Below are positions 26,470 through 52,655 of a stretch of 64,000 bases of DNA, in pieces. This DNA is from Lonicera japonica (taxonomy: Eukaryota > Streptophyta > Magnoliopsida > Dipsacales > Caprifoliaceae), in the NCBI GenBank assembly GCA_021464415.1, contig CM038471.1, positions 72,022,851-72,086,850 on the forward strand, given 5' to 3'. The notes beneath the pieces were generated by a model. That model was not told where the DNA came from. It worked only from the letters and a program-made list of their open reading frames with translations, and made no database searches. Position numbers and translations under genes: made by a program. The stretch's first letter is position 1. Each line of letters opens with the position of its first letter.

Positions 26470-26752
26470 GGGTAAGGTTTCAATGGTTACCGCTATTTTT
26501 ACCCATGGATGGTTATTCTAATATTAACCGTTGGATGAAAAATTAATGGTTGAGATCAAATGAGTAGTTGGCTAACATAATTAATGCACATTGAAGAAAT
26601 ACAAACCATTAAGTGCCAGGTTAAGTGGGTAACTTGTTGTTACCTGATGACATGGCATTTTTATTTTTATTTCCATTTAATTTTAAGGAATCTTAAATTA
26701 GAGATTCATTCCATGATTTGCTAATTCCAATCCGGGATATCCCTATTCTTTA
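26470..26752. repeat. Left terminal inverted repeat of the giant element
   Basis: It pairs with 52440-52655 in inverse orientation. The outer 25 bases are most alike (TTCAATGGTTACC is exact). Inner blocks ACATAATTAATG and GGTTAAG are also shared. The identity is diverged, roughly 65-75 percent by eye, so the element is not young or its ends evolve fast. Confidence 0.72.
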
Positions 26753-26986
26753 CCCTTGTAAAATATGATCTCAAATATTATTTGCCAAACACCACACATT
26801 GATTATTGAACCAAAGTAATTAATTATTTAATACTACACTAGTCACGAAGTTTGTATTATCACACCGTAGATCTGATATATAGTATCTCTTCTACTTACA
26901 ACTCTTGATAGCTAGTTTCACAAAGGACCACAAACTAAGTTATATTGGATTGGTTTATTCGATCCATTGAATAGTTTTTAAAGAAA

Positions 26987-28583
26987 ATGAGTTCTAGTGA
27001 TCAGGTTAAGGAGGTAGGTGAAAAAGAATGGAGAATACGCATGGAGAGAGAATTAAAAACAGTGAAGAACGAATTAAGTTTGATAAAAAGTTTGATGGTT
27101 GATAAAGAGTTTATCAAGAGAGAGAGAAACTCTTCTGATGATAACTGTTACGGGGATGATGACGAGTTTTCCTTTATGTCTCGAAAGAAACTCAAGTCAT
27201 CGAATGACGATAGTATTAAAATAATAACACATCAAGTTCGTAGAAGTATTTGTACGACGCCAGTGAATATTTGTTTGTTCAAAGATTTCAAACTTAAAAA
27301 TACGTTCAGGGCAAAGGAAAGAGAATTGTTGGAGTACATATTCTCGAAATCTGTAAAGCAAGAGTGAGTTATATTAACTCTTCATATAATATATTGTTTG
27401 AATTACACTAATTTATTTTTCTTGTTTGTATCAGCCAATTGATCGTGGCGAGTGGTGATCATAGCCTTTTGCGTTCTGATTTTCGATATCTCGGTCCCAA
27501 TGAGGAAATAGAATCTGAGGTTTTTCTTCTTCTTATTGTTATATTTTTTATTTTTAAAGTAAAATAAGACAAGTACTGTTTCATTCACGTAGTGGTCGTA
27601 TTGACTTTTTTTATTTATGAAATAGATTATTACTATGGTTTCCAAAATATTGACCGAAGATGAGAGATCCAGAACTAGCCAAAAGGCAAGAAAGTGGTAT
27701 CTTCCTGCGAGATTAATAGTGAGTATGCCGTTGATTGAATCACTTACTTAAAAAACTTAGTTATTGTTATTAATTTATACTTTTTGCAGAAGGATCATCT
27801 GCCACATCGTGATCTAACACTACACAAAGTTTGGGGAACAATGAATTACTATAAGACGTTTATGGGATGCATGGACAAGTGCGAGGAGGCAAGTATATAT
27901 TATCTCTTTCGTAATTCGTTTTACGTTCTATATCTAACTAATTGGTAATGTGTTTTACATTAGGTATTCATTCCAATTTTAATTTCAAGACACTACATTC
28001 TTGCACGAGTGTTGTTGAAGACAAAAGTTGTTGAAGTTTGGGACTCTCTATCGGATGCGACACAACCTATTCTTTATTCTGCAAGAATTAAGGATATTGT
28101 AAGTTTAAAATTACGGGATCTCTATTCCACATTGATTGTTTTTCAAAGGTTCATAAAATGTCATTTTTTTTCCTGTAATGTTCCTAATATATTCCAGCTA
28201 CGTAATTTGGACTTGGGACTTGAGAGAGAGATTAGAAAGAAGCCTGGAAATTTCAGTTTTTCTAGTTTTCGCATTGTTCGTGCATCATTCGTTCCGAGGC
28301 AACCTAACGGGTTTGATTGCGGCATGTTTGTTATTTTGTTTATGCAATCTGGATGTAAAGTCGATTCTCGATCCTTTGTGGTAAGATATTTCTATTTGTT
28401 TAGCGTTACTAATTAATTCAATCGTTGTTTCCTTTATTTAATTGTTTTGTAATTATTTTGTAGTTCGACTCAAATGAAGATCGGTGTAGACTAGCATGTT
28501 GGTTGGCGAATTCTAACTACAACAAGCACAGAGATATATTGATGAACGATGTTCGAGAATTTTATTTGAAAATGAACATGTAA
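26987..28583 (+). CDS. Ulp1/C48-family cysteine protease, 363 aa, seven exons
   Basis: Exons 26987-27363, 27435-27519, 27626-27718, 27790-27888, 27964-28098, 28198-28380 and 28464-28583 join to one open frame. Catalytic residues of the SUMO-protease fold are readable: His in SRHYILA and Asp in VWDSL (exon 5), the oxyanion Gln in PRQPNGFDCGMF and Cys in the same block (exon 6). The N-terminal 125 residues are charged and probably coiled. Intron 4 starts with GC inside the context AG|GCAAGT, the standard minor GC-AG type. Ulp1 domains are found in some plant MULEs, where they may strip SUMO from host silencing factors. That function is inferred. All catalytic residues are present, so it could be active. 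Confidence 0.9.
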
Positions 28584-29086
28584 ACTGTTTTGAATTTTTT
28601 TGTAAGAAAAAATGAAAAGTTATTATTATGATGCACGGTGCTCAATTTGCATGCCAATGGATTTGATTAATGAAGAGTTATTATTATTTTTTACAATGAT
28701 GATGCACGGTAATCAATATGCATGCCAATAGTTATGATTAAATATTTGTATTCCTCCTCTCTCTAAACACGGTTGGAGAGTAAATTTGGTGTGTATGCTT
28801 CAAGTACTTTAATTAAGTTTCTCTGTCCATACAATCTCAGTTGGAAGTCCAAATGTTAACATGTATTGGAAAAAAGGAAAAAATATAATATGTTTAATTT
28901 GTCATTGAACTCGGGAAGAAATATTAAAATATTAATTAGTAGTAATATTCATTACAAAGCAAAAACAAAAGCACTACGATAACATTAGAAAGCAAAAAGA
29001 AAACTACTACGTTAACATCAGAAAGCAAAAACAACACTACTACGTTAACATTAAGGAAACCAACCCAATTCGTAATAAAAAAAAGT
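28584..29086. other. Spacer between Ulp1 gene and small gene, no gene seen
   Basis: It contains a direct repeat of TTATTATTATGATGCACGGT-like sequence (28620-28645 and 28678-28712) and three copies of an AAGCAAAAACA-ACTAC-TTAACATTA motif near 28957-29055. There is no coding content. Confidence 0.6.
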
Positions 29087-29359
29087 TCAAATTCTCCTCC
29101 TCTTCTCATTATTCTCTCTCTCCGCCGCTTCTTCCATCTCGAGGTTTGCCTTCCTCAGTTCCTCCAGTATCTCTTTCATCCTCCTATAGGCCTCTTCAAA
29201 TTTTTTTGATTCAGCCTCCCACTCTTTTGTCAATCGTTCAGCATAAATCAAATTGTCGATGCACATCTTAGTGAAGTTTAACGATGATATTGGAGGGCTC
29301 GACGTCGATGGAGATTCTGGTGGGCTCGACGTCGATGGAGATTTTGGAGGAGTTGACAT
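29087..29359 (-). CDS. Small coiled-coil protein, 90 aa (paralogue of 35899-36180)
   Basis: Single-exon frame. The start is placed at 29359 (MSTPPKSPSTSSPPE), not at the ATG at 29431, because a TATATAAA box lies at about 29433-29440 and the sister gene starts with the same MST-P--P pattern. The N-terminus has two copies of a PPxSPSTSS repeat, and the rest is a charged helix (EWEAESKKFEEAYRRMKEI). The sister gene has DEWASENKKLRELTEKE at the equivalent place. The upstream regions of both also match (GTGAATGGxAGTC then TATATACTAG). No catalytic motif is seen and the function is unknown. Confidence 0.65.
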   Translation of the reverse strand: MSTPPKSPSTSSPPESPSTSSPPISSLNFTKMCIDNLIYAERLTKEWEAESKKFEEAYRRMKEILEELRKANLEMEEAAERENNEKRRRI

Positions 29360-29519
29360 GTTGAAACAGAAAATTGAAAGTTGATAAGATATTTGATGGT
29401 TGGTTTGATTTGATTTGTGAATGGCAGTCATGTTTATATACTAGTCTCTTGGAATATGAAGGGTTGTCAGTTTGGAAACCCCAACAGGTGCGTGCATTCC
29501 AACAGTTATTATTACGTGT

Positions 29520-29940
29520 GCACCTACAATAAAAGAGATGGACGGTTCAATAATCAATAGTTATCTCACCGAATGATGCGTGATCCTTCGGCACAATATT
29601 GCTTTAATATATTTACATTTGCAAAAACAACAGTAATAGTTCAGAAATACATTGAACTTAATGGAGCATTCGAACTGACATTAAACATTGGAACTTATGA
29701 TTACACTTTGGGTTTAATGGACTTTTTAACTAATGTAGTTTTTTTATAAAATGTTTGCGGTTCCTGCGCGTGGCTCCTTCGACAAACCCATATATATCTC
29801 ACCGAATAATGCGTGTTCCTTCGGCACAATATTGATTGTATATTTACATTTGCAAAGACAACGGTAACCCTAATACGATTAACTTAATGAAGAATTTGAA
29901 CTGACATTAAATATTAATATGAATTTCAGATTTTACAATA
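29520..29940 (-). repeat. Inverted copies of the CCGAAGGATC repeat unit
   Basis: About two units related, in opposite orientation, to the array at 33587-34300. Shared blocks are CACCGAATGATGCGTGATCC followed by TTCGGCAC, TTTACATTTGCAAA-ACAAC, and GATTACACTTTGGGTTTAAT. Together the two arrays bracket the transposase gene and its divergent neighbour. Confidence 0.75.
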
Positions 29941-30000: not shown

Positions 30001-30456
30001 TCAGACATCGTCCGAAGGCTTCAATAACTCTCTGAGCTTTTTCTCCAGGCTTTCGGTTGCAACGTTGATAATCATAATGTTGGACACGCTAGCATTGAGA
30101 AGGGCTTTCCTTTTGGCATATCTCTCCAAATTTTGTAGCAGCTTGTGCAGCAGTTGGGTCAACTCCGCATTCTGGTAATCCGTCAGTACTTGTCCATCTT
30201 GGTTATGATTTAACTCTTTAGGACAAGAGACATCAGGCTTCATCTTTTTCGTGGGGGATTGAACCTCATCCTCTTGGCGAGTGTTGACCTTCGTCAGGGT
30301 AGATTGTACCTCATCTTGATGGAGATTCTTAATCTTTTTCAGGGGGGATTGAACCTGTTCCTCCTCTTCGTACTGAATATACCATTCTTCTGCCTCGTTA
30401 AAATCATTTGTGATCTTTGGTAGCTCTTCAGAATCAGACAGTATAATCAAGGACAT
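30001..30456 (-). CDS. Acidic repeat protein, 151 aa (paralogue of 44688-45110)
   Basis: Single exon. It opens with MSLIILSDSEE and ends with LKPSDDV. The middle repeats a module of the form EDEVQSPxKKxK about three times (residues 31-78). The C-terminal third is a helical block (LTQLLHKLLQNLERYAKRKA, then SLEKKLRELL). The copy at 44688-45110 keeps the same ends, repeats and helix. The LSDSEE start resembles an acidic SUMO-interaction-like motif (hydrophobic LIIL followed by acidic residues), which is suggestive beside a Ulp1 gene but unproven. It is divergent from the transposase gene. Confidence 0.7.
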   Translation of the reverse strand: MSLIILSDSEELPKITNDFNEAEEWYIQYEEEEQVQSPLKKIKNLHQDEVQSTLTKVNTRQEDEVQSPTKKMKPDVSCPKELNHNQDGQVLTDYQNAELTQLLHKLLQNLERYAKRKALLNASVSNIMIINVATESLEKKLRELLKPSDDV

Positions 30457-30849: not shown

Positions 30850-33417
30850 ATGGAACATTCAGTTAGTTCTGCATCTACATTCAATCTTCTAAACCAAAAT
30901 GAGGGAGCCATTAACTTATGTGAAGATGATGATGATTTTCTAAGCAACAGCAGAGTGTTGACGCATATTGCTGAAACCGAAAAGGCAAAAGAACAGATTT
31001 CAGAAGATAAATCTTCTAACATGGAAGCTGAAGGTGAAAATGAAGATGGTGAAGATCAACCTCAAAAAGATAAGCAACAGTTATTAGAATGGACAGATCC
31101 AGATGTTACGGTGTGGGAAGAATTAATGACGTATTTGTGCATTGATAAAGCACCGGAAGACATACAAGATGATGACTTAGTCGATAAAGAGTTCGTTACA
31201 ATGGAACAAGCTGAAACATTCTACCATATGTACTCAAAAATAATGGGGTTTAGCATTCGTAAGAAAATTAAAAGGAGAAACTCAGTAGGTGAGTGTATAA
31301 TTAGAAGTTGGGTGTGTTCAAATGAAGGATATAGAGAGAATAAATATCAATATCTTGAACGTAGGACTAGGGAGCCAAGAAATATAACTAGGACAGGTTG
31401 CAGGGCTTCATTTAGAATAAACAGAAATAAAGAAGATGGCACATGGTTTGTTAAATGTCTTAGGACACATCACAACCATTCCTTAGCCTTATCCCACCAA
31501 AAACCATTTCTTAGATCCAGCCGAAAATTAAATGAAGCAGATAGGGAACAAGCAATGTTGATGAAAAGGTCTGGAATAAGGACTTGCCACATTTGGCAAT
31601 ATATGGTAGAACAACACGGAGGTTGGCAGAAGGTAGGGTGTATCAAACCTGACTTGTATAGGGGGTGAGGCAAAAATATGGTGCTTGGAGTGATTGTGAT
31701 ACATCTACGGCAATGGGTTATTTAGAATCAAAAAAGGGACCAGATCCTGAATTCTTCTACAAGCATGCCACTGACGAGGAAGGGAGGTTGACAAATTTGT
31801 TTTGGGCGGATGGAGCGTGTAAAGTCGACTATCAGTTATTTGGTGACTGTTTATCTTTCGATTCCACATATAAAACTAACAGGTACGAGTTCCAAGCTCA
31901 TGCCAAATTATTTACATTCATAATAAAATCCACACGTTTTTCTTAATTTGTAATTTTTTTGTAGGTATGGAAAACCATTGGTAGTTCTATTGGGGTCAAA
32001 CAATCACGATAGAACCTGTGTATTTGGTTTTGCTTTACTACAAAACGAGTTGGCTGAAACGTATACATGGATACTAGAGACATTTTTAGAATGTATGGAT
32101 GGAAAGCAACCTGATACAGTTTTAACTGATGGTTGTCGATCCATGAACAAGGCACTAGAAGAGACCATGCCAGGTGTTGTGCATCGTATATGCTCATGGC
32201 ACATAATAAAAAACTCGATACAACATATACATAAAGCTGGATTCTGCGAAGATTTCAAGAGATTAATATTCAGGTAAATAATTGTTACTCCGAACGATCA
32301 ATATATTTACACTTTTTTTTTTTCATTCTGTCTTCTCAACAGGTACTACTCAGATAATCAGTGGGAAGAAGAGTGGAACAAAATGAAGGCCAAACACGAA
32401 TTACTTGAGAATGATTGGTTGGAGGCACAGTACATGACTAGGCATATGTGGGCAGATTCTTTTCTTCGTGGTCATTATTTTGGTGGGAGTAGAGCAACCG
32501 GCAGGTGTGAGTCTATGAATGCTTTTCTCAAAAAGGATTTAGAAGAGGATATACCATTGTGGATGTTTCTTAGACATTGCGACAATGGTTTAGCTGCTTT
32601 ACGTTACCATGATATGAGAGAAGACTTTAGAACAAACATGACAGAAGCTGTCCTTGATCGGACCAACATGGAGTTGCTTGAGGAACAGGCCTGTTCAATT
32701 TTCACTAGAGAGATATTTCATCGGGTGAGGGCTCAGATTCTACGTGCTGATAAATACATTGTTTTAGAACGGACAGAATTACCTAACTACGATGTTTGCG
32801 TAGTGACAAAGTACATGCGCAATGATTCAAAGCGTAAGGTTCTTTACTCTCATGATGGGGATGACGTCAGATGTGAGTGCTATTGGTATGAAACTAAAGG
32901 AATACCATGTAGACATATTTTTTCAGTCATGAAGCATTTGAACAAGGCTGACTTCCCAGAATATTTAGTAAAGAGGAGGTGGTTAAGGGATGCAAAAATC
33001 ATTGATCCGTCATCAGTAGGTTCGGAGAGAAAATGCCCTCATCCGGATGTCGTAGAGAACACCAGGTATGGTGGCATTAGCACGCAGAGTAATTTGGTCG
33101 CATTCTACGCTACCAAATCAAGCAAAGCATTCAATATGGCAATGAAGGCTATGACTGGGTTAGTAGTTGAGTTGCAAAAAATGGCGAAAGAAAAAGGAGA
33201 TGATCCTATATCAAGGGACCAAAACTCTGCCACATTGGGTATTAAAGACCCAGCAATTGTTCCAACCAAAGGCAGACCTACTCAATCATCTCAACGTGGA
33301 AAAAGGAAAAGTACAACGACTATTAAGCCAAGATATTGCAAGAGATGTCATGGAACAGGCCACGATTCAAGAAATTGCCCAACCAATGGAGGAGGGACGA
33401 AGTCAAACAAAAATTAA
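30850..33417 (+). pseudogene. MULE transposase (FAR1-MULE-SWIM-zinc knuckle), one frameshift
   Basis: Three exons (30850-31883, 31966-32273, 32343-33417) span a FAR1/FHY3-like transposase of about 805 residues. In order: acidic N-terminus; FAR1 DNA-binding domain (residues about 120-212, ending THHNHSL); MULE DDE core with Asp in FDSTYKTN (codon at 31861), Asp in LTDGCRS (32128), CxxH in RICSWHI, and Glu in GRCESMN (32509); SWIM zinc finger CEC...CRH (32872-32916); C-terminal zinc knuckle CKRCHGTGHDSRNC (33337-33378). After LYR the frame breaks at a G run (31660-31664) that is one G short: the summed exon length is 2417, one less than a multiple of three. All other motifs are intact, so this is either a single inactivating deletion or a homopolymer error. 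Confidence 0.88.
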
Positions 33418-33586
33418 TAATATTTTTTTTTCGTCTTAATTTAGCGCCTTCTTTTTTTCGTAGACATGTTAATGCATCTATGTATATTACATTTTGAGAA
33501 AGCATTATTTTGTTTATATATCTACATTACATTTTTATTGCACAATATTACTTCGTCATTTCTTCATTTTTTTTCAAATTAAAATT

Positions 33587-34300
33587 AAACCCATAGTGTA
33601 ATCTTAAGTTCCAATGCTAAAGTCCCAGTTATTTATGAACTATTATTATTTAGGGTAACCGTTGTTTTTGCAAATGTATATAAAAAAGACTCTAATTGCC
33701 GAAGGATCATCCATCCTTCGATGGGATAACTAATTGTTTGCCGAAGGATCCACCCGCAGGAACAAGAGACATTTTATAAAATATTTACATTAGTTAAAAA
33801 AGCCATAAAACCCGTAGTGTAATCTTTTAAGTTCGAATGCTTAAAGTCAGTTCGAATCTCCATTAAGTTCCAGTCATTTCTTAACTATTATTTAATAGGT
33901 TACCGTTGTTTTTGCAAATGTATATAAAAAAGACTTTACTTGCCGAAGGAGCACCCATCATTCGGTGGGATAACTATGGGTTTGCCAAAGGACCCACCCG
34001 CAGGAACAACAGACATTAATAAAATAGTTACTTTAGTTAAAAAAGCCATTAAACCCGTAGTGTAATCTTTTAAGTTCGAATGCTTAAAGTCAGTTCGAAT
34101 CTCCATTAAGTTCCAGTCATTTCTTAACTATTATTTAATAGGTTACCGTTGTTTTTGCAAATGTATATAAAAAAGACTCTACTTGCCGAAGGAGCACCCA
34201 TCATTCGGTGGGATAACTATGGGTTTGCCGAAGGATCAACCCTAAGGAAAATATATGTTTTATAAAATATTTACATTCGTTAAAAATGCCATTAAACCCA
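33587..34300 (+). repeat. Tandem array, three units of about 221-243 bp
   Basis: Unit starts (AAACCCxTAGTGTAATC) lie at 33587, 33808, 34051 and a partial one at about 34294. Each unit has GTTGTTTTTGCAAATGTATA followed by TAAAAAAGAC, which resembles a TATA box, then TTGCCGAAGGA, a CATTCGGTGGGATAACTA block and a second GCCGAAGGATC. Related inverted units lie at 29520-29940. Possible transposon-protein binding array or repeated promoter; no coding content. Confidence 0.85.
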
Positions 34301-34467
34301 TAGTGTACTCTTCAGTTCTAAAAAATGCCATTAAACCCATAGTTAAAAATGCCATTAAGCCATTACACCCAAAAAACTTCACAACCCTACCAAAAAAAAA
34401 AAAAAAAGACTTCCCTCTTATGAAGCATTCATCAACACCTATTCCTCGTTCTTCCAACCCCTTGCCA

Positions 34468-34917
34468 TCAGAGAAGATCATCGAGACGGCCCTTCAGATC
34501 CCTGTGGAATCTTATTTTCTTCTTTGTCCCTGCTGCATGGGATGATAAAGTTCTTAACCCGTTGAGGCGCTTGCGGTTGCCAGTTGCGTAGCAAACTGGG
34601 CAGTGCACCATGCCCTTTTGATGGTCATCAACTGTCTCCATAAAGATAGTAATCATTGCCTTTATCCGTCGCTTCTCATCGCTTTCTTCATCGCTTGCTT
34701 CATCGGTGTCTCCGTCCGGTTCCTCTATAGCCGTTGGATCATACGGCTCTGCTAGGTTCTCGGGCCAATCATTAAGAATATCTTTTGCTGCAGTTTGTGG
34801 TGGGGGAGGGGATTTGTAGTAAGTTGGAGGATTTTGGACGTCAGCCTTCATTTTTGGATGATCTCCTGAGAAAGCATCTGTTTGATCAAACTTGGCTTTT
34901 TTGATTGGTGAAGCCAT
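34468..34917 (-). CDS. Small protein with XS-type zinc finger, 149 aa
   Basis: Single exon beginning MASPIKKAKFDQ. An acidic middle (EEPDGDTDEASDEESDEKRR, residues 65-84) precedes a C-terminal block HCPVCYATGNRKRL...LSSHAAGT...FHRDLKGRL (residues 105-145). The spacing of CxxC, His 127 and His 138, with the HAxGT phrase, resembles the XS zinc finger found next to the XS domain in SGS3-like RNA-silencing proteins. No XS domain follows. Assignment is from pattern alone. Its upstream region shares an inverted module with the GRF gene at 50218. Confidence 0.65.
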   Translation of the reverse strand: MASPIKKAKFDQTDAFSGDHPKMKADVQNPPTYYKSPPPPQTAAKDILNDWPENLAEPYDPTAIEEPDGDTDEASDEESDEKRRIKAMITIFMETVDDHQKGMVHCPVCYATGNRKRLNGLRTLSSHAAGTKKKIRFHRDLKGRLDDLL

Positions 34918-35898
34918 TGGAAACAGGTTTTTCGTATCAGAGGTATATGTGTTGCAAATAATTTTATTGCTTGTAGAATCTATTTAAATACAATAGGAAA
35001 GACTAGTAATTTAATGATGTACGTAATGTGGAAGGCTATACTTTAATGCGCAGGGATTTATATTGGGACTTTAAAGTCCCCATCAACCGTTCCCGATGAT
35101 TTTTATGGGTTTTCGAACCGTTTCCATTGTGTGGCTAATCGAAAGCAACGATTTAAGTTAGTAATATCTGATTGGGCATGTAAACCTATTGCATACTGCA
35201 ACTAATTAATACTGTTGGAACTCACAAGTTTACATTTATTACTATTTTAAAATTAGGGTAATTTTATTTCTATCCACCAATTAATAATCCTTCAAATATA
35301 TTTATTTTAAAAGATAGTTTCCTAACTAGAATATACTTCCTTTAAATATATTTACTTTTAAAAGTAGTTTCCTAATTAGAATATATTTTCCTTAATTTGT
35401 TAAAATTGTATTGATACAAGTACTTTACATTCATTATTTATCAAAAACATACAATATTACAAAACTGGGCGGAATTAATTTATAGCATTACATCTAGTGG
35501 ATTTTTTAAAATGAAATCATTAATAAATAATATTTATAAAATTGAATCAATAATATATTTTTTTTCAGTTTATCCACAATCGTGGATTAATTTAATAGGC
35601 TACGTGGATTAACTTAATAACGCGGATTAACTTCGAGATATGGTGGACAGAAATAAAATCACCCTAAAATTATTGTGTAAAACGATGTTCAGTGGGTTGA
35701 AAAGCATTTCCTATAAGTTCATGGTTGGGAAACATTTGTTTTTTGTTTTTTAAAACAATTTCGGACAAAATGGCTGCAGGCTACTGAATTAGATGTTCAC
35801 CCTCCTTAACCAGAGATTCTCGAAACTACTGATAATTTTCATTAATAATTAAAAAACAAGTAATACATAGCGGACCATTAAAAAAAAGAAAAAAACAT
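34918..35898. other. Spacer with upstream module and AT-rich filler
   Basis: Upstream of the XS-type gene, the segment 35140-35235 is inverted-homologous to 49920-50020 (blocks GATTGGGCATGTAAA, GCAACTAATTAATA, GTTGGAACTCACAAGTTTAC). The rest is AT-rich with a repeated AATATATTT-ACTTTTAAAA-TAGTTTCCTAA-TAGAATATA phrase (35292-35340 and 35343-35390). No gene seen. Confidence 0.6.
35140..35235 (-). promoter_or_regulatory. Shared upstream module, copy 1
   Basis: About 95 bp lying some 220-320 bp upstream of the XS-type gene start. In gene orientation it reads GTAAACTTGTGAGTTCCAAC, TTAATTAGTTGCAG, TTTACATGCCCAATCAGA. The same order occurs about 200-290 bp upstream of the GRF gene at 50218. Unrelated proteins sharing this module suggests common regulation. 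Confidence 0.7.
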
Positions 35899-36180
35899 TT
35901 ATTTTTTCCTACTATTCTCCCACATGAGTTCCAATGCATCCATCTCGTCTGTTCTCTTCCGCCTCTTCTGAATCAGCCCATCTATTTTCAATAAGACATC
36001 GTTCATTTTTTTATCGAACTCGTCACGTTCTTCGTCTGAAGCATTCGGGTTCTCTTTCTCAGTTAGCTCTCGAAGTTTTTTGTTTTCGGAAGCCCATTCA
36101 TCCGAAAGTCCATCGAGAAATTTTATATACTGGGCACGCTTGACATGAATATCCGAAGGAGTGACTGGACTTGTTGACAT
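35899..36180 (-). CDS. Small coiled-coil protein, 93 aa (paralogue of 29087-29359)
   Basis: Single exon beginning MSTSPVTPSDIHVKR. It is almost wholly charged helix (DEWASENKKLRELTEKE, then DKKMNDVLLKIDGLIQKRRK). Two TATATA-type boxes lie within 110 bp upstream (around 36266 and 36288, in CTAGTATATAAT repeats). Same layout and promoter pattern as the sister gene. Function unknown. Confidence 0.65.
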   Translation of the reverse strand: MSTSPVTPSDIHVKRAQYIKFLDGLSDEWASENKKLRELTEKENPNASDEERDEFDKKMNDVLLKIDGLIQKRRKRTDEMDALELMWENSRKK

Positions 36181-40700: not shown

Positions 40701-41336
40701 GATTATGAAGGAATGACTGAGCAACCTGGTCATTCTACTGAAGAAGGTGTCGACGCTGATGAGCAAGACTTTTCTTACATGTGGAATGGAATTGAAGACA
40801 CTGTGCAAGTTGACCTTCTTCAGAAACTTTCCACCAAGGACCGTGCCTTCTTTCGGTCTTTGGCAAGTCAGTCAACACTCAGGCCACACCTTCTTGGTAT
40901 ATTTAATGACACCTTCGGTGTGATGGGTGATACTGCCATTGAGCTGCTGAGCGACTTTGACATTGAGCGAATGGAAAGCGCCTTGATCATATTGCATGCG
41001 AGCAAATTGGATACTACATATCTGGAGGAGAAGGTTCGTCTTTTGAAGTCCCTCTCCACTCGCAGCAAAAGTGATAGGCTTGATACTCTCTTTTACTCTG
41101 AGGAAAAACTACTGCGTAAGAAGGAGGAAATTGAAACTCAGAAGGTTGCTTTGGAAGCAAGGATAAGTGCTTTGATGAAGGAAATTCAAGAATTGGAGCA
41201 ACCGATGCGCACTTTGGACCGGCAACTCGGTTCTATTGCCGCTGAAAGGAGGCAGTTGCTAGGTGATGTGAAAGAGAGCTTGGGCAAGGAGTTTGATGAA
41301 GTGGTTGGCACTTCACTAGGAGAGTTCCTACGCTGA
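37794..41336 (+). CDS. Plant mobile domain (PMD) protein with coiled-coil tail, 1049 aa
   Basis: Exons 37794-39887, 40104-40368, 40469-40621 and 40699-41336 join in frame. The start is the ATG of MANIPLSKDHV; the longer open frame upstream begins in A-rich leader. The PMD (aminotransferase-like mobile domain) runs roughly from residue 100 to 470, with WTDSILSNSTYRVLLMKAGI, SRWSCDTHTF, WGEFTITLEDICQLFGLAPL and a Trp/Phe-rich second half. A basic NLS-like patch (SGRSKRKQKSRD) follows near 615. Exons 2, 3 and 4 each carry a variant of SYKxKExEETAQVDLPT, so this exon was multiplied. The last exon ends in a strong coiled coil (KKEEIETQKVALEARISALM). PMD proteins occur as transposon genes and as host silencing factors (MAIL/MAIN family). 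Function here is unknown. Confidence 0.88.
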
Positions 41337-41853: not shown

Positions 41854-42186
41854 TCAAGTAGTGTTTTCTTTCCGTTCTCCCAATCTTCTCTGCAGCTCAT
41901 CCCGCTCTGCCATGACGGTTGCCAAGCGCTCCTCCAAACTTTGGATTTGACTAACCATTTTGGGGATCTCTCTTTCCAAGTCGGGGATCTCTCTTTCCAA
42001 ACTCACCACCCTTAAGGAAAGGGCCTCGAAGCTATTGGGTGAGGGAGGAACGTTGGAAGTACTGGCTTTATCCATAGTTTGCTTGATGTTTTGGTTAACT
42101 AGAGGTTTGTTCTCCTTCATAAAGGTGGACGATTCTGAAGCACCGGATTCTGCCAAAAATCTATATATGGCTCTGTATAAAGGCAT
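41854..42186 (-). CDS. Small coiled-coil protein, 110 aa
   Basis: Single exon beginning MPLYRAIYRFLAESG. A linker (STSNVPPSPNSFEAL) is followed by a heptad-type coiled coil from about residue 55 to 104, with EREIPDLEREIPKMV and ERLATVMAERDELQRRLGER. A TATA box (GGCTATAAATACC on the minus strand, about 42223-42235) lies some 40 bp upstream of the start. Convergent with the PMD gene, 518 bp away. It could pair with the PMD tail or with the coiled-coil protein at 43382, but this is speculative. Confidence 0.65.
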   Translation of the reverse strand: MPLYRAIYRFLAESGASESSTFMKENKPLVNQNIKQTMDKASTSNVPPSPNSFEALSLRVVSLEREIPDLEREIPKMVSQIQSLEERLATVMAERDELQRRLGERKENTT

Positions 42187-43381: not shown

Positions 43382-43798
43382 ATGTCGACTCACAGGAATC
43401 TGGATATCTTTCTTGTTGAAGCCGAACCCATTCCTCGTAGGCTCCGACGGTCGGATACGGGCGATGCAAGTGGTTCCAACTCGACAGATGTTAATCCAAA
43501 CGAGCATTATTTCGAAAGGATCCGACGGGTAGAGGCGGAATTGAAAGGTAAAGTCCACCGGATGGAGTGTGAAATAGTTGACCTTGAGTCTAAGCGGCGT
43601 AACCTTGGGGTAAGATATGAGCAATTGAGGACAAAGTACGAGATGTCTGTATCCCGGGAGGCCAGCACAAATGCTTATGCTGATGGCGTGCTACAAGACT
43701 CCATCCGATTGGGGAGGGAGCAAGAAGAACAAATCCGCCGATTGAGGGAAGAAAATGACCGACTGCGACGTGCACTGTTACGGTTATACCTAAAATGA
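43382..43798 (+). CDS. Small coiled-coil protein, 138 aa
   Basis: Single exon beginning MSTHRNLDIFLVEAE. A short basic/Ser-rich N-terminus precedes a long helix from residue 40 to the end (RIRRVEAELKGKVHRMECEI, then EEQIRRLREENDRLRRALL). The last part has a leucine-zipper-like spacing. No known enzyme motif. The N-terminal MST and helical make-up recall the genes at 29087 and 35899, but clear homology was not found. Confidence 0.65.
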   Translation: MSTHRNLDIFLVEAEPIPRRLRRSDTGDASGSNSTDVNPNEHYFERIRRVEAELKGKVHRMECEIVDLESKRRNLGVRYEQLRTKYEMSVSREASTNAYADGVLQDSIRLGREQEEQIRRLREENDRLRRALLRLYLK

Positions 43799-44687
43799 AG
43801 ATAAGGTTTTTTAGAGGAATCTGTAACGGTTCAGGCGAAGGACGATTTATAATGATTATCTTCGTTTTTTGTTACTTCTTTGTTTTTTGTCATTAAAAAT
43901 ATTAGTTTTTTGTGAGGTATTTTGTCTTTCGCTTAATGTTAATGTTAATGTTAATTCCTCTCGCTTAATGTTAATGTTAATGTTAATTCCTCTTTGATAG
44001 TTTAAATGCTTGTACAACGCTTCTGCAAATAAATTATCGTTTTCGTGTTGCCTTTGCAGAAATAAAAACCTAAATAATCATTAATGTGTTGTTATCTTTG
44101 AGGCCTACATATTTGAGGCAAGATTAATTTTTAAATATTATTTCAAAGAAGATAGAAATTGTATTTATTTTTTTTTTTACGTCTCCTTTGTAGTTAATGC
44201 AAAGGCTTAAGTACTTCAAGTATATATATTGAGTACGGGATTAAAAAGTGCCCTTTTTTTTTTTTGCAAAAAACCCGAGAGGACAAATTACTTAATGAAA
44301 TTTATATCTCTGAGTTGTCTTTCGGTTGATATAAAATAACTAATGTATTCGCTTAGAAGGAAAACTTGAATTGCTATGCATGCACTGAGAAGGAGAATTG
44401 AACATCAAGTACCATTTGAACTAACAAAAAGAAGAGGGAAATCGCAACATTTAAAAGCATTAGGATTAACATTAATTAAGCCAACACGAGATGCTTCTTG
44501 GGGTCCAGGGACTCAAAACATAAGAGTTGACAAATAAAGTAAGGATCCTTCGGAAGGTTGATCCTTCGGATGGACCAGGACCCCAAAACAAAAGACTTGA
44601 CAAAGAAAGTTAAGATCCTTAGAAGGGACAAGGGCCCCAAAACAAAAAGACTTGACAAATAATTTTAAAAGTAACAAGAAAAAAACA
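43799..44687. other. Spacer between convergent genes
   Basis: It contains a tandem repeat of CGCTTAATGTTAATGTTAAT followed by GTTAATTCCTCT (43931-43993) and paired GATCCTTCGG motifs at 44543 and 44563, the inverse of the CCGAAGGATC motif in the arrays at 29.5 and 33.6 kb. A phrase of GACTTGACAAA and CCCCAAAACAAAA is repeated (44575-44655). No gene seen. Confidence 0.6.
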
Positions 44688-45110
44688 TTAAATATCGTCC
44701 GAAGGCTTGAAAATCTCAGCGAGATTTTTCTCCAGACTCTCAATGGTAGCGTTGATAAACATAATATCGGTCACGCATGCACTCAAAAGGGCTTTTTGTT
44801 TGCCATATATGTCCAAATTTTCATGAAGCTTGTTCAGCAGTTGTGTCAAGTCCTCTTTCTGGTCAAGTTCTTTACCATTGTTCTCTCTAAGGGGAGATTT
44901 AACCTCATCCTCTTGGCGAACATTGATCTTTTTGTGGGGAGATTCAACGTCATCCTCTCGGCTAACCTTGAGCTTTTTAAGCGGAGATTGAACCTCCTCC
45001 TCATCCTCTTCTTCGTAATGAATAGAACACTCATCTGCCTGAGTAACATTTTTTTTGTTGATTTTCTTTTTTGGTACTTCTTCAGAATCAGACAAAATGA
45101 TCAAAGACAT
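44688..45110 (-). CDS. Acidic repeat protein, 140 aa (paralogue of 30001-30456)
   Basis: Single exon beginning MSLIILSDSEEVPKK and ending FKPSDDI. It has the repeated DEVxSPLKKxK module (residues 36-76) and a C-terminal helix (DLTQLLNKLHENLDIYGKQK, SLEKNLAEIF), matching the gene at 30001 throughout. A TATA-type box (CACTATAAATATATGC on the minus strand, about 45185-45200) lies 75-90 bp upstream. Upstream sequence is also conserved between the two genes (GAGTATTAA, TGATGCTTxGGTTA, GCGCATGCCTT). Confidence 0.7.
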   Translation of the reverse strand: MSLIILSDSEEVPKKKINKKNVTQADECSIHYEEEDEEEVQSPLKKLKVSREDDVESPHKKINVRQEDEVKSPLRENNGKELDQKEDLTQLLNKLHENLDIYGKQKALLSACVTDIMFINATIESLEKNLAEIFKPSDDI

Positions 45111-45735: not shown

Positions 45736-45772
<37 letters not shown>

Positions 45773-45880: not shown

Positions 45881-46200
45881 ATAATAACAACAGAAACAAA
45901 TCCGAAAACCTACCGAACAAATTTAATGATTCACACCAATCCAAAAAACAATGAAATATTATTGTAGTAGTACTATTGTACTACTACTAACAGTAGTAGT
46001 AGACAATTGGTACGTAGCATTAGTAGCTCAGTATGTTTAGTACTAATTTAGGGGGTGTTATGGCAAATCCGAAAACCTACCAAACGAATTGAACAAATTC
46101 ACACTGATCCAAAAAACAACGAACTAATAGTACTATTGTACTACTATTACTACTACTACTGACACCACTGCTATTGACAGTAGTAGTAGTAGTAGTAGTA

Positions 46201-46265
46201 GAGGAAAGAGGTTGGCCCAGTGGTAGGCAACCTCCACCCTCGGTGTAAGATCAAGGGTTCGACTC
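46201..46265 (+). mobile_element. SINE 5' fragment duplicated with the minisatellite
   Basis: The same first 65 bases as the SINE at 46436, ending just after the B-box-like GGTTCGACTC and then running into minisatellite sequence. It is a partial copy made by array expansion. Confidence 0.65.
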
Positions 46266-46435
46266 AGCTCAGTATGTTTAGTACTAATTTAGGGGGTCTT
46301 ATGGCAAATCCGAAAACCTAGCAAACGAATTGAACAAATTCACACTGATCCAAAAAACAACGAACTAATAGTACTATTGTACTACTACTGCTACTACTAC
46401 TGACACCACTGCTATTGACGGTAGTAGTAGTAGTA

Positions 46436-46590
46436 GAGGAAAGAGGTTGGCCCAGTGGTAGGCAACCTCCACCCTCGGTGTAAGATCAAGGGTTCGACTC
46501 ATGGGGTGGGAGGGAAGGGTTTTTCTTTATTTGTAGGATTAAGGGAGAGACTTAGACCTCCCTTAAATTTAAAAAAATAAAAATAAAGAA
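46436..46590 (+). mobile_element. tRNA-derived SINE
   Basis: The head carries RNA polymerase III promoter boxes: GGCCCAGTGGTAGGC (A box) and GGGTTCGACTC (B box), about 30 bp apart as in a tRNA. The body ends in an A-rich tail (TTTAAAAAAATAAAAATAAA). It does not fold as a functional tRNA. Short flanking repeats could not be set because it sits in triplet repeats. Confidence 0.7.
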
Positions 46591-47333
46591 AATAGTAGTA
46601 GTAGTTGTTGTAATAGAAGTAGTAGTAGACAATTGGTACATAGTATCAGATGCTCAGGGTGTTTACTACTAATTTAGGGGGTGTTATGGCAAATCCGAAA
46701 AACAACAAGCTATTAGTACTAATAGTACTATTGTAACTACTGCTGGGTGTTTAGAACTAATTTATGGGGTGTTATGGCAAATACAAAAAGCTACCGAACG
46801 AATTGAACAAATTAACATCGATCTAAAAAACAACAAACTAATAGTACTATTGTACTACTACTACTACTATTACGACTGACACCACTTTTACTGACAGTAG
46901 TAGTAGACAATTGGTACATAATATTAGAAGCTCAGCATGCTTACTACTAATTTAAGGGTTGTTATGGCAAATCCGAAAATCTAACGAACGAATTGGATTG
47001 ATTCACACTGATCCAAAAAACAACGAACTGATAGTACTATTACGTACCTACTACTACTACTACTACTACTGTTGTCACCACTACTACTGACAGTAGTAGT
47101 AGACAATTGGTACGTAATATTAGTAGCTCAAGGTGTTTAGTACTAATTTAGGGGGTGTTATGGTAAATCCGAAAGCCTACCGAACGAATTCAACTGATTC
47201 ACACCAATCTATAAAACAACAAAACTAATAGTACTATTTTAGTAGTGATAGTTAAAAATAAAGTGATGTGATAGACAATGGTCACATCACACTAGTCACA
47301 TTATTGTAACTAGAATTTAGGGCAGTGATATTG

Positions 47334-47578
47334 GCACCCCCAAAAAAACTTGGTGACACTCCCACTTTCATTCGGTCCTTTACAACCAAGTAAAGTATCT
47401 GTTACTCTGTTATTGTGGATCGATTAGAAGCTTATATACTCAGTCCTTGACAACCGAGTAATGCATTATTACGTTTATACTCGGTTCTTGACAATTGGGT
47501 AATGTATAGTTACCCGGTTGTAAAGAACCGAATCAAAAGTGGAATTGTTTTCAAGAGATATTGGGGGCGCCAATATTT
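47334..47578. mobile_element. MITE with TATTGGCxCCCCCAA ends, 245 bp
   Basis: The ends TATTGGCACCCCCAA and TTGGGGGCGCCAATA are inverted repeats. The interior repeats the phrase ACAACCGAGTAA/CGGTTCTTGACAA in both directions. It is related to the truncated copy at 13669. No clear target duplication was found. Confidence 0.7.
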
Positions 47579-48730: not shown

Positions 48731-49153
48731 ATGATTAAAACAACAACGGCGAAGATAGACAGTGCAGACCACGTTCCAAAATCCCTCATGAGTGAAGGAA
48801 CCTCAAGGAAACGCCGCAACGACGGAGTTGAGGAGAGTGATCCTCAAATAAACATGTCGGAATCTGCTCCGAAAAAACTAATGAAGACATTTCAAATTTT
48901 GGAGTGTGAAGAAGAGAGGGCAGAGAAGAAGACGAAGAAAAACAAGAAGAAGAAGATGAAGAAGAACAAGAAGAAGAACAAGAGAAAGAAGTACGAAAAT
49001 CATGTCGATACCGACATTGACAAATTTGAAGCGTGGTTGAAGTACGAAGACGGAAGCGACCATGTGAGCCCTTCTCTGGATGGTAAAGAGGAAGAAAATG
49101 GTTATGTTCTGGACAGCGATGATGATGAACCTCCAAACCACTCCCATCGATGA
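48731..49153 (+). CDS. Lysine-rich basic/acidic protein, 140 aa
   Basis: Single exon beginning MIKTTTAKIDSADHV. Residues 64-87 are an almost unbroken Lys/Asn/Arg stretch (KKNKKKKMKKNKKKNKRKK), a strong nuclear or nucleolar localisation signal and possible nucleic-acid binder. An acidic C-terminus follows (DGKEEENGYVLDSDDDE). It belongs to the set of small charged proteins of the element. No relatives recognised. Confidence 0.6.
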   Translation: MIKTTTAKIDSADHVPKSLMSEGTSRKRRNDGVEESDPQINMSESAPKKLMKTFQILECEEERAEKKTKKNKKKKMKKNKKKNKRKKYENHVDTDIDKFEAWLKYEDGSDHVSPSLDGKEEENGYVLDSDDDEPPNHSHR

Positions 49154-50217
49154 AAACCCTAGTTTTTGATTTTTTTAACATTTTCTTTTTTGGGTAAGGA
49201 TTTTTGTCAGCGAATCCTCTTGGTAAATTATAATTTTTCTTTTTTGGTGGTTGTGTAAATGATTGGTCCTCAGAGCACCTATATCCCCTACTTTTCTCTC
49301 AATTGTTTTGTTTTGGGCCCCTGGCCTCTCCGAAGCATCAAATCAAGCTTTTTCCTTTTGTTAGTTCAAATGCTTAGGTTCTCCTTCTCTGAATAAAAAA
49401 GAAAACTAAAAACATAATTTCGTCATTTTTAAGTTGAAGATAAAAAAAAAACCAAAAAAAAAATAAAAAAATTTAAAACAACAGGACATAACTACACTTT
49501 TATTAAAGTACATCACAAAATAAAACAAGTATTTTCGTTCATAATTTCTTTTAGGGAATACATTAGTTATTTTATATCAACCGAATGACAAAACTCATGG
49601 ATTTAATTTCCATTAAGTTCATCGAGTATTAATAAGTATTTCTCGACTGTTATTACTCCATTAGGAATGAAGAACTTTGTTAACCTCTTTAAAAGAGGGT
49701 AATGGTGACCCTTGCATTTGATTAGTGGATGCAATAAAAACTGTGGGTATCGCCCAGCTCCCTAACCTAATGCGGCACCGGGTTCGGACGGCAGGGAACC
49801 GTAGCATGGGGGGACGTCTAATCCTTTTGCCGCCGTAAGTCGCCCTGGCTAATCGTAAGTAGCATGCAAGCATTCTCTCAAAATTAGAATTAATGGACAA
49901 CATCGTTTTACACAAGACTTTTTAAAATAGTCATAATTGTAAACTTGTGAGTTCCAACAATATTAATTAGTTGCAGCATGCAATACTTTACATGCCCAAT
50001 CAGAATCGTTGCTTTAGATAAATACTACTTTACATGCACCAAGCATCGGAAATTGCATTATCTCACGCTGCCAAGGAAATAATTAAAACTACTCCAACTG
50101 TTAGAAGATCTTCGCTATAATTAAAACCTTCTAATTAACCTAAATTCTTCAATCAAATTACACTATACTATTATCTTCGTTACAAGTTCTTCGCTTCTTG
50201 TTACTACGATTTCAAAG
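49154..50217. other. Spacer with shared upstream module before the GRF gene
   Basis: It holds a GC-richer 150-bp island at 49740-49880 (ACCGGGTTCGGACGGCAGGG, GCCGCCGTAAGTCGCCC) of unknown origin. It also holds the upstream module at 49920-50020 described separately. The 5' end of the GRF gene is probably within the last 150 bp. Confidence 0.5.
49920..50020 (+). promoter_or_regulatory. Shared upstream module, copy 2
   Basis: It reads GTAAACTTGTGAGTTCCAAC, TTAATTAGTTGCAGCATGCA, TTTACATGCCCAATCAGA and ATCGTTGCTTT, about 200-290 bp upstream of the GRF gene. It is the inverted counterpart of 35140-35235 upstream of the XS-type gene. Confidence 0.7.
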
Positions 50218-50577
50218 ATGGGAGCACTAGATTATTCTAGCAGCAGCAATTCAGGAGAACAAAATCTCGTTTGCAGGCCAAAGCTATGCTTCTGTGGGAA
50301 AAACGCCTCCGTTAAGATTAGCCGGACACTAAAAAACCCAGATAGGATTTTCTATTGCTGCAAGAACAATGGCTGCGGTTTTTTTGAATGGTTTGTTCAA
50401 CCAAGTGCTCTGTCTTCTCTTCCAGAAGAGAACAAAGATAGGTCGACACATTCAACTACTTCAGCTTCTGTTAATATTCTAAATAAGCACGAGAAACTGT
50501 ATGTTATGGTTCTCACTGAAATTGTGTTAACAGTTGTTTTAAATCTTCTTGTAGTTTGCATAATATTAAAGATGTAA
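50218..50577 (+). CDS. GRF zinc-finger protein with C-terminal membrane segment, 119 aa
   Basis: Single exon beginning MGALDYSSSSNSG. The GRF-type zinc finger (residues about 21-61) shows LCFCGKNASVK, then RIFYCCKNNGCGFFEW, with the four zinc cysteines and the aromatic FFEW end typical of the family. A Ser/Thr-rich linker leads to a hydrophobic segment (VMVLTEIVLTVVLNLLVVCI, residues about 96-115) that looks like a tail anchor. GRF fingers bind single-stranded nucleic acid in other proteins. Small GRF plus membrane-tail proteins are common in plant genomes near transposons. Confidence 0.82.
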   Translation: MGALDYSSSSNSGEQNLVCRPKLCFCGKNASVKISRTLKNPDRIFYCCKNNGCGFFEWFVQPSALSSLPEENKDRSTHSTTSASVNILNKHEKLYVMVLTEIVLTVVLNLLVVCIILKM

Positions 50578-51325
50578 AAAATCAGTTATTTCAATAAAAT
50601 TTGATCTCTGTTCTATCCATTGTGTTTCTTCTTTTGTTTTGCATAATATTATTTGATATGTAAAAATCAGTTACAGTTTCATTGTCCTTCAAATTGCGGA
50701 TTAGATAATTTACAATTAACTAATTTACAAAATTTTAATTTATTAGTATTTGGTTGTGTAAATTGAACAATTGTAAAGATGATAATTCAAGTTGATTCAC
50801 AAAAACTCAAATTAGTCATTTCAAGTAAAACTTGAAATTGCCCCAAATTCAAGAATTAGATAATTCATTCCAACTCTATTTTTCGAGAAGATCTAGTATC
50901 TACCCCGTGATGTTGATGCATCTAGACAAAATTTTAAATGACATAGAACAAAAGGGAACATTATTCTAACAATTGGAATTGAATTAGTCATAAATGAGCA
51001 AATTCACAATTCTTCAATCGAAAATTAACCATAATTCAAAAATTAGGTAATTTACACAACCAAACGGGTGGTGTTTTCAATTAAATTTTATCAAAATCTT
51101 TGTTAATTAAACCCATTTGCGTCTTAAAGATAAATTTGACTGATGAGACTTAAAAGACAAAAATACAAATTCTATATTTCCTCAAATAAGCTGTTTCAAT
51201 ATCCAGCTGGGTCTTAAATAAAAATAAAAATAAAAATAAAAATACATATATACATGAGACTTCAATGCATTAATGATATTATAGTTTTTATTTCACCAGC
51301 AAATAAATAAAAATATCTTTCATAA
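50578..51325. other. Spacer, no gene seen
   Basis: Between the convergent GRF gene and the gene at 51326. It contains internally repeated TAGATAATTTACA / AATTAGGTAATTTACAC-like words near 50702 and 51045 and an (ATAAAA)n run (51221-51243). Confidence 0.55.
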
Positions 51326-52215
51326 TCAACGTCCACCTCCGGCTCGGGGCACTACTTCACTTGTCACCAATCCATCTTCCTCATCTCCATTTCTGTTTTG
51401 ATTGCCTTCATATTCTTGCTGCGAAGGAAACAAATAAAAAATAAGTTTTATGTTATTAATCAACCAAGTACATTAAATACTCCTATAATCAGATCAAACG
51501 GTACTTACAATACGACGTCGTAACTCATGTATTACAACGTTAGAAGCATTCAACCTATCTCTCGATTCTAGCATCTTCGAAACTAGTATGTTTTGCAACC
51601 CAACAATCATTCTCAGCAAGGTAGACACTTTCTCAACACTAACCTACATTTGTAAAATTATATTATGTATCAAACATAGGATAATAAAAATATATATATA
51701 AAAGGAAAAAGTAAGAACAAACATTAAAAAACATATCCACTTACAAATCTAACATGTTCTGGAATCTGCATATTGTTCATGTTAACATCTGATGGTATAT
51801 TTATAGTCATTGGATCACCATCTTGGTCTGGAATAAGAAAGGTCCAAGGCGGTATTGGGACATCGTCATCTTCAATTAGACTAACATTTCCATTACTGGC
51901 ACAATCTTAATAATTTAAGATGTACAGATATTATTGGTTAAAATAGGGAAACATGTTAAGCAATTCTCGAATACAGGAAAAAAAAAAAAAACAAACAAGC
52001 AGACTATACACAAATATTACCAAAAAACCGTGTGAGGAACACAGATCAAGCTTCGTACGACTGGTTCTGCCTCGATTCTTGAATCTTGATGATGATGATC
52101 CCTCAGACTTTTTAGGGGAAAAATATCGGCGAGCATTGTCTACGATCTCTCTTGATCTTCTCCGGTAGTTACGTGATCTTGTTGGAACTTGCTGTGATGC
52201 TCCAACAGATCTCAT
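51326..52215 (-). CDS. Uncharacterised four-exon gene, 191 aa
   Basis: Exons 52029-52215, 51745-51905, 51509-51643 and 51326-51418 join with GT-AG introns into one frame. The N-terminus is basic (RSRNYRRRSREIVDNARR, SSSSRFKNRGRTSR). Exon 2 is acidic (VSLIEDDDVPIPPW). Exon 3 encodes a helix (VEKVSTLLRMIVGLQNILVS, then MLESRDRLNASNVVIHELRR), possibly a dimerising segment. The C-terminus is GGGR. It is the outermost gene on the right, 440 bp from the inverted repeat. Family not recognised; intron count suggests a captured or long-resident gene. Confidence 0.68.
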
Positions 52216-52439
52216 CTTAGAAGCAGAAGAAGCAGCTCTGTATTTTACTTTTCTTTCTCTCTCAAAGACTCAGACAAAAAAAATAAACAAACAAAAAGCA
52301 AAGAAAGTAGAGTTGTACGTAAAATGTAACATGATATATAGAGATGAAAAATCAAACTCAAATCTATTTTGAAGTGTTATTTCCTATAAACATATGCCAT
52401 TAATTAACTATAAAACTGAAATGACTAAAACACCCATGT

Positions 52440-52655
52440 GCACTTATCCTAATCCGGAATTGGGTTATACCAAGTCTGTTTGGCAAATGGAATCTTTAAA
52501 GAATCTAAAAGATTAATTAAAAAAAAAAAAAAAAAGATCCGGTCACCTTAACCTGCTATAACAGGTTAAGGGATATGCCAACTCATCAATGTCCATTAAT
52601 TATGTCAGTACCCATCTATGGGTAGAGAGAGAAGGTAACCATTGAAAACTCTTCC
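52440..52655. repeat. Right terminal inverted repeat of the giant element
   Basis: The inverse of 26470-26752. It ends CCATTGAAAACTCTTCC at 52655 next to (TA)n. An A run (52520-52535) and a short palindrome CCTGCTATAACAGG (52551-52564) lie inside. Confidence 0.72.

Follow-up and report, generated by a model that had tools for sequence, protein, structure and literature searches.

A 26-kb Mutator-type element of Lonicera japonica with about twelve predicted accessory genes and many genomic copies

Is a gene-rich stretch of 26,186 bp in Lonicera japonica (Caprifoliaceae, Dipsacales) one transposon, or an assembly of unrelated mobile and host sequences? The stretch occupies positions 26470-52655 of the window, i. 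e. the 64,000 nt of DNA analysed here (assembly GCA_021464415.1, contig CM038471.1, 72,022,851-72,086,850, forward strand); all positions of the element are given in window coordinates. The first-pass annotation had proposed a single Mutator-like element (MULE) of about 26 kb. Multiple genomic copies, target site duplications (TSDs) and empty sites bear out that this is a mobile unit. We consider it probable that it is a Mutator-type transposon which moved as a whole, is likely mobilised by its own FAR1/MULE transposase, and carries about 12 predicted accessory genes, some of which may aid silencing evasion.

The left terminal inverted region (26470-26740, plus strand) starts with GGGTAAGGTTTCAATGGTTACC and is best conserved in its outer 60 bp; the right one (52450-52655, minus strand) terminates in ...GGTAACCATTGAAAACTCTTCC. 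They are similar over 59 bp at 81%, and the similarity extends inward in diverged form. The extended alignment of the two ends scored 134, whereas the best score of the left end against 569 other pieces of the window was 101; in a control with random pieces, 1 of 381 window pairs scored equally high, the window containing true repeats of its own. No further inverted partner was listed for either end in the whole window (E 1e-5) or in 26000-53300 (E 0.05). Diverged inverted ends in the correct orientation are thus present as proposed, and so is (TA)n at both junctions. The TSD, ATATATATAT, lies at 26460-26469 and 52656-52665. A target duplication had been predicted correctly, but its size is 10 bp and not 9 bp, within the 8-11 bp usual for MULEs. 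The two 10-bp duplicates are identical to each other in 18 of the 21 copies that were read at both junctions (out of 29 paired rows), including all three informative cases, in which the target is other than pure (TA)n. The junctions of an older copy on C4 were also read but left out of this count because its flanks are pure (AT)n. In 24 of 28 script-read cases (30 fetched), the left end adjoins a run of alternating A and T of at least 8. All three related empty sites that were read continue straight through the insertion point; together with the target duplication they place the boundaries exactly at 26470 and 52655, as originally drawn.

In the 886-Mb genome the left end is present in at least 40 copies of 97-100% identity, window included (the best 40 of 736 first-look candidates were scored); for the right end, the best 40 of 766 candidates showed 94-100%. 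A same-strand right end follows within 80 kb in 29 of the 40 scored left ends. The end-to-end span is 25.3-27.0 kb in 16 of the 40 (window included), 15.2-22.4 kb in seven paired left ends and 43-62 kb in six, three of which re-use a right end that is already paired. Each end thus partners the other in many copies, which contradicts an origin of the two inverted repeats from separate short elements. A genome search also turned up further copies in which the internal genes lie between the two ends. Three additional copies read end to end have the same gene order as the window copy: two are colinear with it at about 99% and have unrelated flanks, and the third, the C4 copy, is older and decayed (91.5-96.6%). 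The cut points are identical between copies. Taken together, the ends, the 10-bp TSD, the (TA)n target, the related empty sites, the near-identical copies and the kept gene order indicate that the element moved as one unit. At a diverged locus on C1 (32.92-32.94 Mb), a short derivative of 4.2 kb, bounded by these ends, lies beside a decayed fragment; this locus was excluded from the evidence on the ancestral form.

The transposase gene (30850-33417, plus strand, three exons) has Pfam matches to MULE (1.4e-22), FAR1 (6e-20) and SWIM (2.5e-4). The presence of a MULE transposase inside the element was therefore correctly called, but its reading frame is not intact in the window copy, where a one-base frameshift occurs near 31,660; this frameshift is absent in both other copies compared. 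Among the 36 listed exon-3 matches of at least 350 aa, 22 are free of stops by our count, with frameshifts elsewhere being possible. The domain order FAR1/MULE/SWIM fits the Jittery/FAR1 clade of MULEs. In a protein search without genome context, the best matches of a piece of the transposase besides itself were from Humulus (57%), Cannabis and Ulmus. In the Lonicera genome, the next full-length matches after the element's own family are at 29%, so that no stand-alone source of the transposase was seen among the best 81 of 1562 candidates. The transposase likely acts on the outer ends. The word GGTTACC, chosen after looking, is shared by the outer ends and the arms of an internal module (A, below; 6 of 6 occurrences in the element) and is the post hoc lead from which the transposase might be supposed to bind the outer ends. 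We read the element as a giant MULE that is likely able to move itself.

The element contains further inverted repeats. The arms of module A flank the transposase gene; the left arm (29557-29916, plus strand) consists of tandem units and is inverted relative to the right arm (33584-34359, plus strand; 243-bp units x2.8). In module B the left arm (44290-44620, plus strand) is inverted relative to the right arm (49290-49618, minus strand). A third pair, 35167-35252 (minus strand) and 49920-50004 (plus strand, upstream of the GRF gene), shares 93% identity. The inverted pairs 29557/34220, 44290/49618 and 35167/50004 suggested a pile of separate nested short MULEs. As an account of the unit as it is today this was rejected, since all three further copies that were fully read keep the modules in place and 39 of 40 listed matches of the module A arm lie near some listed end (the criterion for right ends being loose, 40 kb); for 33 of the 40, a listed left end lies 3.06-3.36 kb outward. 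Modules A and B hence travel with the element. The 35167/49920 repeat was also considered as the terminal repeat of a 14.8-kb inner element, but its two copies immediately precede genes, and visual inspection revealed no TSD.

The modules also bear on the question of which transposase moves the element. Modules A and B could be MULEs that inserted into a larger non-autonomous element, and a different transposase, acting on the outer ends, would now mobilise the unit in trans. That both modules have inverted arms of their own and that the SD genes are paralogous between them would fit such a history, and the position of the module A arms around the transposase gene is compatible with a captured MULE as well. 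Yet all three further full copies, one of them at 91.5-96.6%, preserve this arrangement, no stand-alone transposase of this family was found among the matches listed, and inspection by eye revealed no TSD around module A or B. We therefore regard movement in trans as improbable, though as the most serious competitor of a self-mobile element.

Inside the element, Pfam supports Peptidase_C48, FAR1, MULE, SWIM, PMD and GRF domains, and ten frames run from an ATG to a stop codon without interruption. The Ulp1-type cysteine protease (26987-28583, plus strand, 363 aa) is complete, as had been claimed: besides the Peptidase_C48 match, its seven-exon model is uninterrupted and its catalytic H, D, Q and C align with those of yeast Ulp1. 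Exons 1-5 are open in 17 of 30 copies. The plant mobile domain (PMD) of the predicted gene at 37794-41336 (plus strand) was recognised by Pfam; the proposed 1049-aa protein, however, is seen as two distinct frames, an open first one of 713 codons and another of 252 codons, putatively joined by splicing. In a protein search without genome context, in which 7991 candidates were listed, two proteins resembled it, both from Prunus (24-26%). A GRF zinc finger is likewise supported by Pfam for the 119-aa protein at 50218-50577 (plus strand), the hydrophobic C-terminus of which was judged by eye. The assignment of the 149-aa zinc-finger-like protein (34468-34917, minus strand) to the XS type was not supported; Pfam did not recognise it as XS and its best match was another finger at E 0.085.

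The remaining genes encode mostly small proteins: CC-a (29087-29359, minus strand, 90 aa) and CC-b (35899-36180, minus strand, 93 aa), both charged and with similar upstream regions; the paralogues SD-a (30001-30456, minus strand, 151 aa) and SD-b (44688-45110, minus strand, 140 aa); the coiled-coil protein CC2 (41854-42186, minus strand, 110 aa) and the coiled-coil-like CC3 (43382-43798, plus strand, 138 aa); a lysine-rich protein (48731-49153, plus strand, 140 aa); and a multi-exon basic protein of about 195 aa (51330-52215, minus strand, exon borders by eye), which had no Pfam match. The SD protein matched itself and one other protein at 45% in a protein search without genome context. None of the element proteins matched a VANC-type domain in Pfam, a search that a highly diverged version might escape. 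A noncoding tandem array (45897-47244, plus strand) is built of repeats about 196-242 bp long, which contain inner palindromes of the CTACTACTACTGACACCACTG type. An Rfam search gave no match.

Are the extra genes functional, or is the element a giant Pack-MULE carrying captured host sequences by chance? Gene capture is usual among MULEs according to the parts of PMC2528002 consulted, and the decay of copies after insertion is nearly neutral. Compared with the window copy, the C2 copy has 8 synonymous and 21 nonsynonymous changes and no stop, and the C3 copy 14 synonymous and 47 nonsynonymous changes and five stops, its coding difference (0.72%) exceeding the noncoding one (0.31%). In the older C4 copy, pN/pS is 0.64 (raw, transition bias uncorrected), 12 stops are present and coding divergence (3.6%) is barely below noncoding divergence (3.9%), which gives no selection signal for most accessory genes. 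Against functionless cargo, the frames are full-length and open, and SD-a and SD-b, identical at 79 of 135 aligned residues, have a dN/dS of 0.32, indicating that selection kept this gene after its duplication; this pair is the only one for which constraint was demonstrated. The zinc-finger gene has no clear host parent among its 45 genomic loci (merged from 58 rows; the 13 rows left out are 11 pieces near listed loci and two separate weak ones, C1:95096080 and C8:54797262). With 53 transposase places chosen from 142 rows, 40 of the 45 loci have a listed transposase match within 8 kb on the opposite strand, 41 are near a listed transposase or left end and four have neither. Furthermore, Pack-MULEs hold host gene fragments and no transposase, whereas this element encodes one. 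Cargo of this kind is thus unlikely, slightly more so than movement in trans. That a host gene cluster was spread by segmental duplication is hardly credible. Local duplication does occur, as is seen from three left-end pairs whose flanks agree by more than 98% over 1.4 kb and from two copies with a common right flank, but no others match among 28 left flanks, and the constant cut points, 10-bp TSDs and related empty sites already contradict it.

The self-mobile giant MULE that we favour resembles several known systems in part; the comparisons refer to the portions of the cited papers that were available. MuTAnT/AutoMuTAnT of Medicago (PMC4486113) is also of the Mutator type, inserts into (TA)n and makes a short TSD; we also count its Jittery-like transposase as a likeness to the FAR1/MULE/SWIM protein. 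AutoMuTAnT, however, has 4.9 kb, one gene, a 9-bp TSD and the TIR mask GGGGTTTGCTAGAACA, as against 26.2 kb, about 13 genes, 10 bp and GGGTAAGGTTTCAATGG here; the element thus shares the target of that family but neither its terminal sequence nor its TSD size. With Kaonashi/VANDAL elements (PMC13317346, PMC10398659, PMC2528002) it shares an Ulp1 domain, accessory genes and internal noncoding tandem repeats; those elements lack TIRs and have some three genes, whereas the 26-kb Lonicera element has TIRs and no VANC match in Pfam. A plant mobile domain occurs in grass and Amborella MULEs, fused to the transposase (PMC5418596), while here a gene of its own encodes it. MULEs with multiple tandem TIRs (PMC3310237) resemble the module A arms, which unlike theirs are internal and not at the mobile ends. 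The parts of the giant-transposon review PMC6431247 that were available describe similarly enlarged multi-gene DNA transposons and give up to 7 kb for Pack-MULEs, 16-20 kb with 4-5 ORFs for red alga CACTA elements and up to 39 kb for Helitrons, but no MULE of this kind. MULEs in the literature sampled for comparison mostly have a few kb and one to three genes, and none of comparable size and gene content was found in searches of open-access papers.

A possible interpretation is that modules A and B derive from MULEs that were once independent; their arms, no longer in use as ends, might today function as promoters or binding arrays, while the encoded transposase would act on the outer ends. 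By analogy with VANC proteins and PMD proteins, some of the accessory proteins probably counter host silencing. As VANC proteins do on VANDAL elements, the Ulp1 protease (by deSUMOylation), together with the PMD protein and the small charged proteins, could target the noncoding tandem arrays inside the element and keep transcription on; the catalytic residues of Ulp1 and the domain names are what suggests a role in silencing or SUMO pathways. More tentatively, and with appreciable doubt on our side, the element might represent a new, self-contained class of giant plant DNA transposon, a counterpart of the giant multi-gene transposons that occur in fungi and animals, in which a deSUMOylating protease, a plant mobile domain protein and zinc-finger and coiled-coil proteins form a counter-silencing kit acting jointly on the internal repeat arrays. 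With 26 kb, about 13 genes, clean target duplications and many near-identical copies, the element shows that a plant transposon of the cut-and-paste type is able to carry a large set of genes to new places, and has done so in the recent past. It also provides candidate proteins with which to test how a transposon could counter silencing in plants; young, decayed and shortened copies within one genome are the internal controls. Two further motifs, both leads chosen after looking, are TGCGCA/ATGCGCA near promoters and CCTTCGG in the arms.

The first-pass annotation had proposed that diverged inverted ends with (TA)n at both junctions delimit a giant Mutator-type transposon (MULE) at 26470-52655. 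Comparison of the window with itself confirmed these ends, which match over 59 bp at 81% and are flanked by (TA)n on the left and on the right. The extended end-to-end score was 134, whereas the left end reached at best 101 against 569 other window pieces; in 381 random pairings of window pieces, a score as high as that of the end pair occurred once, the window containing true repeats. The ends do not belong to separate short elements, since this self-comparison listed no further inverted partner for either of them and many left and right ends pair genome-wide.

The window's own assembly (886 Mb in 967 contigs) was searched for further copies. The best 40 of 736 first-look candidates matched the left end at 97-100%, and the best 40 of 766 the right end at 94-100%, the window included in both. 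Among the matches listed, 29 of the 40 left ends have a right end on the same strand at a distance of up to 80 kb. The span is 25.3-27.0 kb in 16 of these pairs (window included), 15.2-22.4 kb in 7 and 43-62 kb in 6, three of which re-use an already paired right end; 11 left and 14 right ends are without a listed partner. Three copies with both ends and internal genes, on contigs C2, C3 and C4, were read end to end; the others were sampled near the ends or in part. The complete C2 and C3 copies are colinear with the window over 26.2 kb at about 99% and have unrelated flanks. The C4 copy (1.83-1.85 Mb) has the same gene order and is 91.5-96.6% identical in long aligned pieces. It is an older copy and decayed, lacking 34.8-35.8 kb and part of 37.0-37.5 kb and carrying an extra piece of ~1.8 kb.

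Both junctions were examined in 21 of the 29 pairs. An identical target duplication was found in 18 of the 21, of 10 bp and not of the 9 bp first expected. In the C3 and C228 copies, which have the right flank in common, it differs at one base, and one further copy shows a one-base shift in phase. Since most targets consist of (TA)n alone, they are little informative; the three exceptions, ATATATGTAA, ATTTATATGT and ATATATATAA, all show a perfect duplication (copies of 26.3, 26.3 and 22.4 kb). Of 30 left ends fetched, 28 were read by script, and 24 of these adjoin an alternating AT tract of 8 or more. The window copy lies within another dispersed repeat (about 24916-26469 and 52656-52790), the left part of which matches 24 other places over at least 740 of 751 query bases at 80-97%. 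At all three related sites fetched, the left flank runs directly into the right one and the element is missing; matches to the two flanks overlap there by 10, 8 and 10 bp, which sets the bounds at 26470-52655. This shows that the 26,186-bp unit moves, into (TA)n and with a 10-bp duplication.

The transposase lies between inverted arms of its own (29557-29910 / 33841-34220, about 80%), and arms at 44290-44620 / 49290-49618 bound a second block. These arms suggested a heap of nested transposons, which the genome-wide search of the same assembly ruled out for the present unit. Of the best 40 matches to the transposase arm (108 candidates), 33 are found 3.06-3.36 kb inward of a left end on the list, another 6 lie no more than 40 kb from a listed right end, and 1 is near neither. 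With the transposase as query (best 81 of 1562 candidates), the next full-length matches after the family's own loci drop to 29%. The zinc-finger gene (34468-34917) has 45 loci. At 40 of these a transposase match is listed on the opposite strand no more than 8 kb away, at 26 a left end is listed at up to 16 kb, and 4 lack both. The internal modules belong to the element.

Pfam matches to Ulp1-type protease, FAR1, MULE, SWIM, PMD and GRF domains back the transposase, Ulp1, PMD and GRF genes noticed earlier between the ends. The element has 10 ATG-to-stop frames, and tandem arrays of noncoding sequence occupy 33.6-34.3 and 45.9-47.2 kb. The Ulp1 gene gives an open seven-exon model of 363 aa, which keeps the H, D, Q and C that are catalytic in yeast Ulp1. 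The window-copy transposase has a one-base frameshift absent from two other copies compared. At 35248-35672, within the stretch missing from the C4 copy, a short insert that has inverted ends of 32 bp splits an upstream repeat common to the zinc-finger and GRF genes. At 47328-47576 there is an imperfect, MITE-like palindrome of ~250 bp, with a relative at 13674-13841 in the left flank.

Among the matches listed, transposase exon 3 has no stop in 22 of 36 of at least 350 aa (frameshifts elsewhere are possible). Of 24 matches to the zinc-finger frame that reach 145 aa and 95% identity, 22 have none, and of 30 copies 17 have open Ulp1 exons 1-5. Changes after insertion look nearly neutral. Since the coding difference from the window exceeds the noncoding one in the C3 copy (0.72% and 0.31%) and hardly falls below it in the C4 copy (3.6% and 3.9%), we claim no selection on most genes. 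Judging by substitution ratios, the small predicted proteins SD-a and SD-b are the exception (79 identities over 135 aligned residues; dN 0.25, dS 0.79, ratio 0.32; bootstrap pN/pS 0.33-0.61). Upstream regions are alike in SD-a/SD-b, CC-a/CC-b and the zinc-finger and GRF genes; only the SD proteins are recognisably paralogous, and internal gene duplication is thus shown for them alone. Window and C2 copies differ by 0.29% in coding and 0.45% in noncoding sequence, which at a plant rate of ~7e-9 substitutions per site per year would date their separation to about 0.2-0.3 million years before present.

The element is a MULE by its domain content, its ends and its target duplication. Its transposase has relatives in Humulus (57%), Cannabis and Ulmus, all Rosales. 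MuTAnT is nearest in target choice, Kaonashi/VANDAL and PMD-bearing MULEs in cargo; each differs from the window element in a checked feature. Searches of open-access papers showed no MULE of comparable size and gene content; the Pack-MULEs mentioned in a giant-transposon review do not exceed 7 kb (PMC6431247).

The element is likely moved by its own FAR1-type transposase, for which the matches listed contain no other genomic source; this enzyme would insert the unit into (TA)n with the 10-bp duplication. The predicted accessory proteins would counter host silencing, a reading drawn from published MULEs by analogy. In these, VANC21 binds noncoding VANDAL21 regions that contain tandem repeats and short motifs, and DNA methylation there is lost upon its expression (PMC10398659), some VANC genes carry Ulp1 (PMC13317346), and PMD proteins function in silencing, with an anti-silencing role suggested for MULE-borne ones (PMC5418596). 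The window element carries an Ulp1 gene, a PMD gene and noncoding tandem arrays.

A GH1 beta-glucosidase-like gene, assigned by eye, has its 3' end ~210 bp from the element and is part of a tandem array of such genes (1-21650 and 52866-64000), in which 61518-64000 and 10362-12875 are 97% identical. Elsewhere, three pairs of left ends (L005/L006, L008/L027, L014/L015), 27.6-36 kb apart, share >98% of 1.4 kb of left flank, and thus the locus was tandemly duplicated together with its flank, possibly by aberrant transposition or unequal exchange. The copies at C3:82851620 and near C228:3810 have the right but not the left flank in common, which is the pattern that recombination between copies, or a join made in assembly, would leave. 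At C1:32920500-32938500 (L063-L064) there is a 4.2-kb element that has both ends of the giant type and is flanked by (TA)n. Next to it is a decayed fragment whose transposase module has the inverted orientation with respect to the zinc-finger gene.
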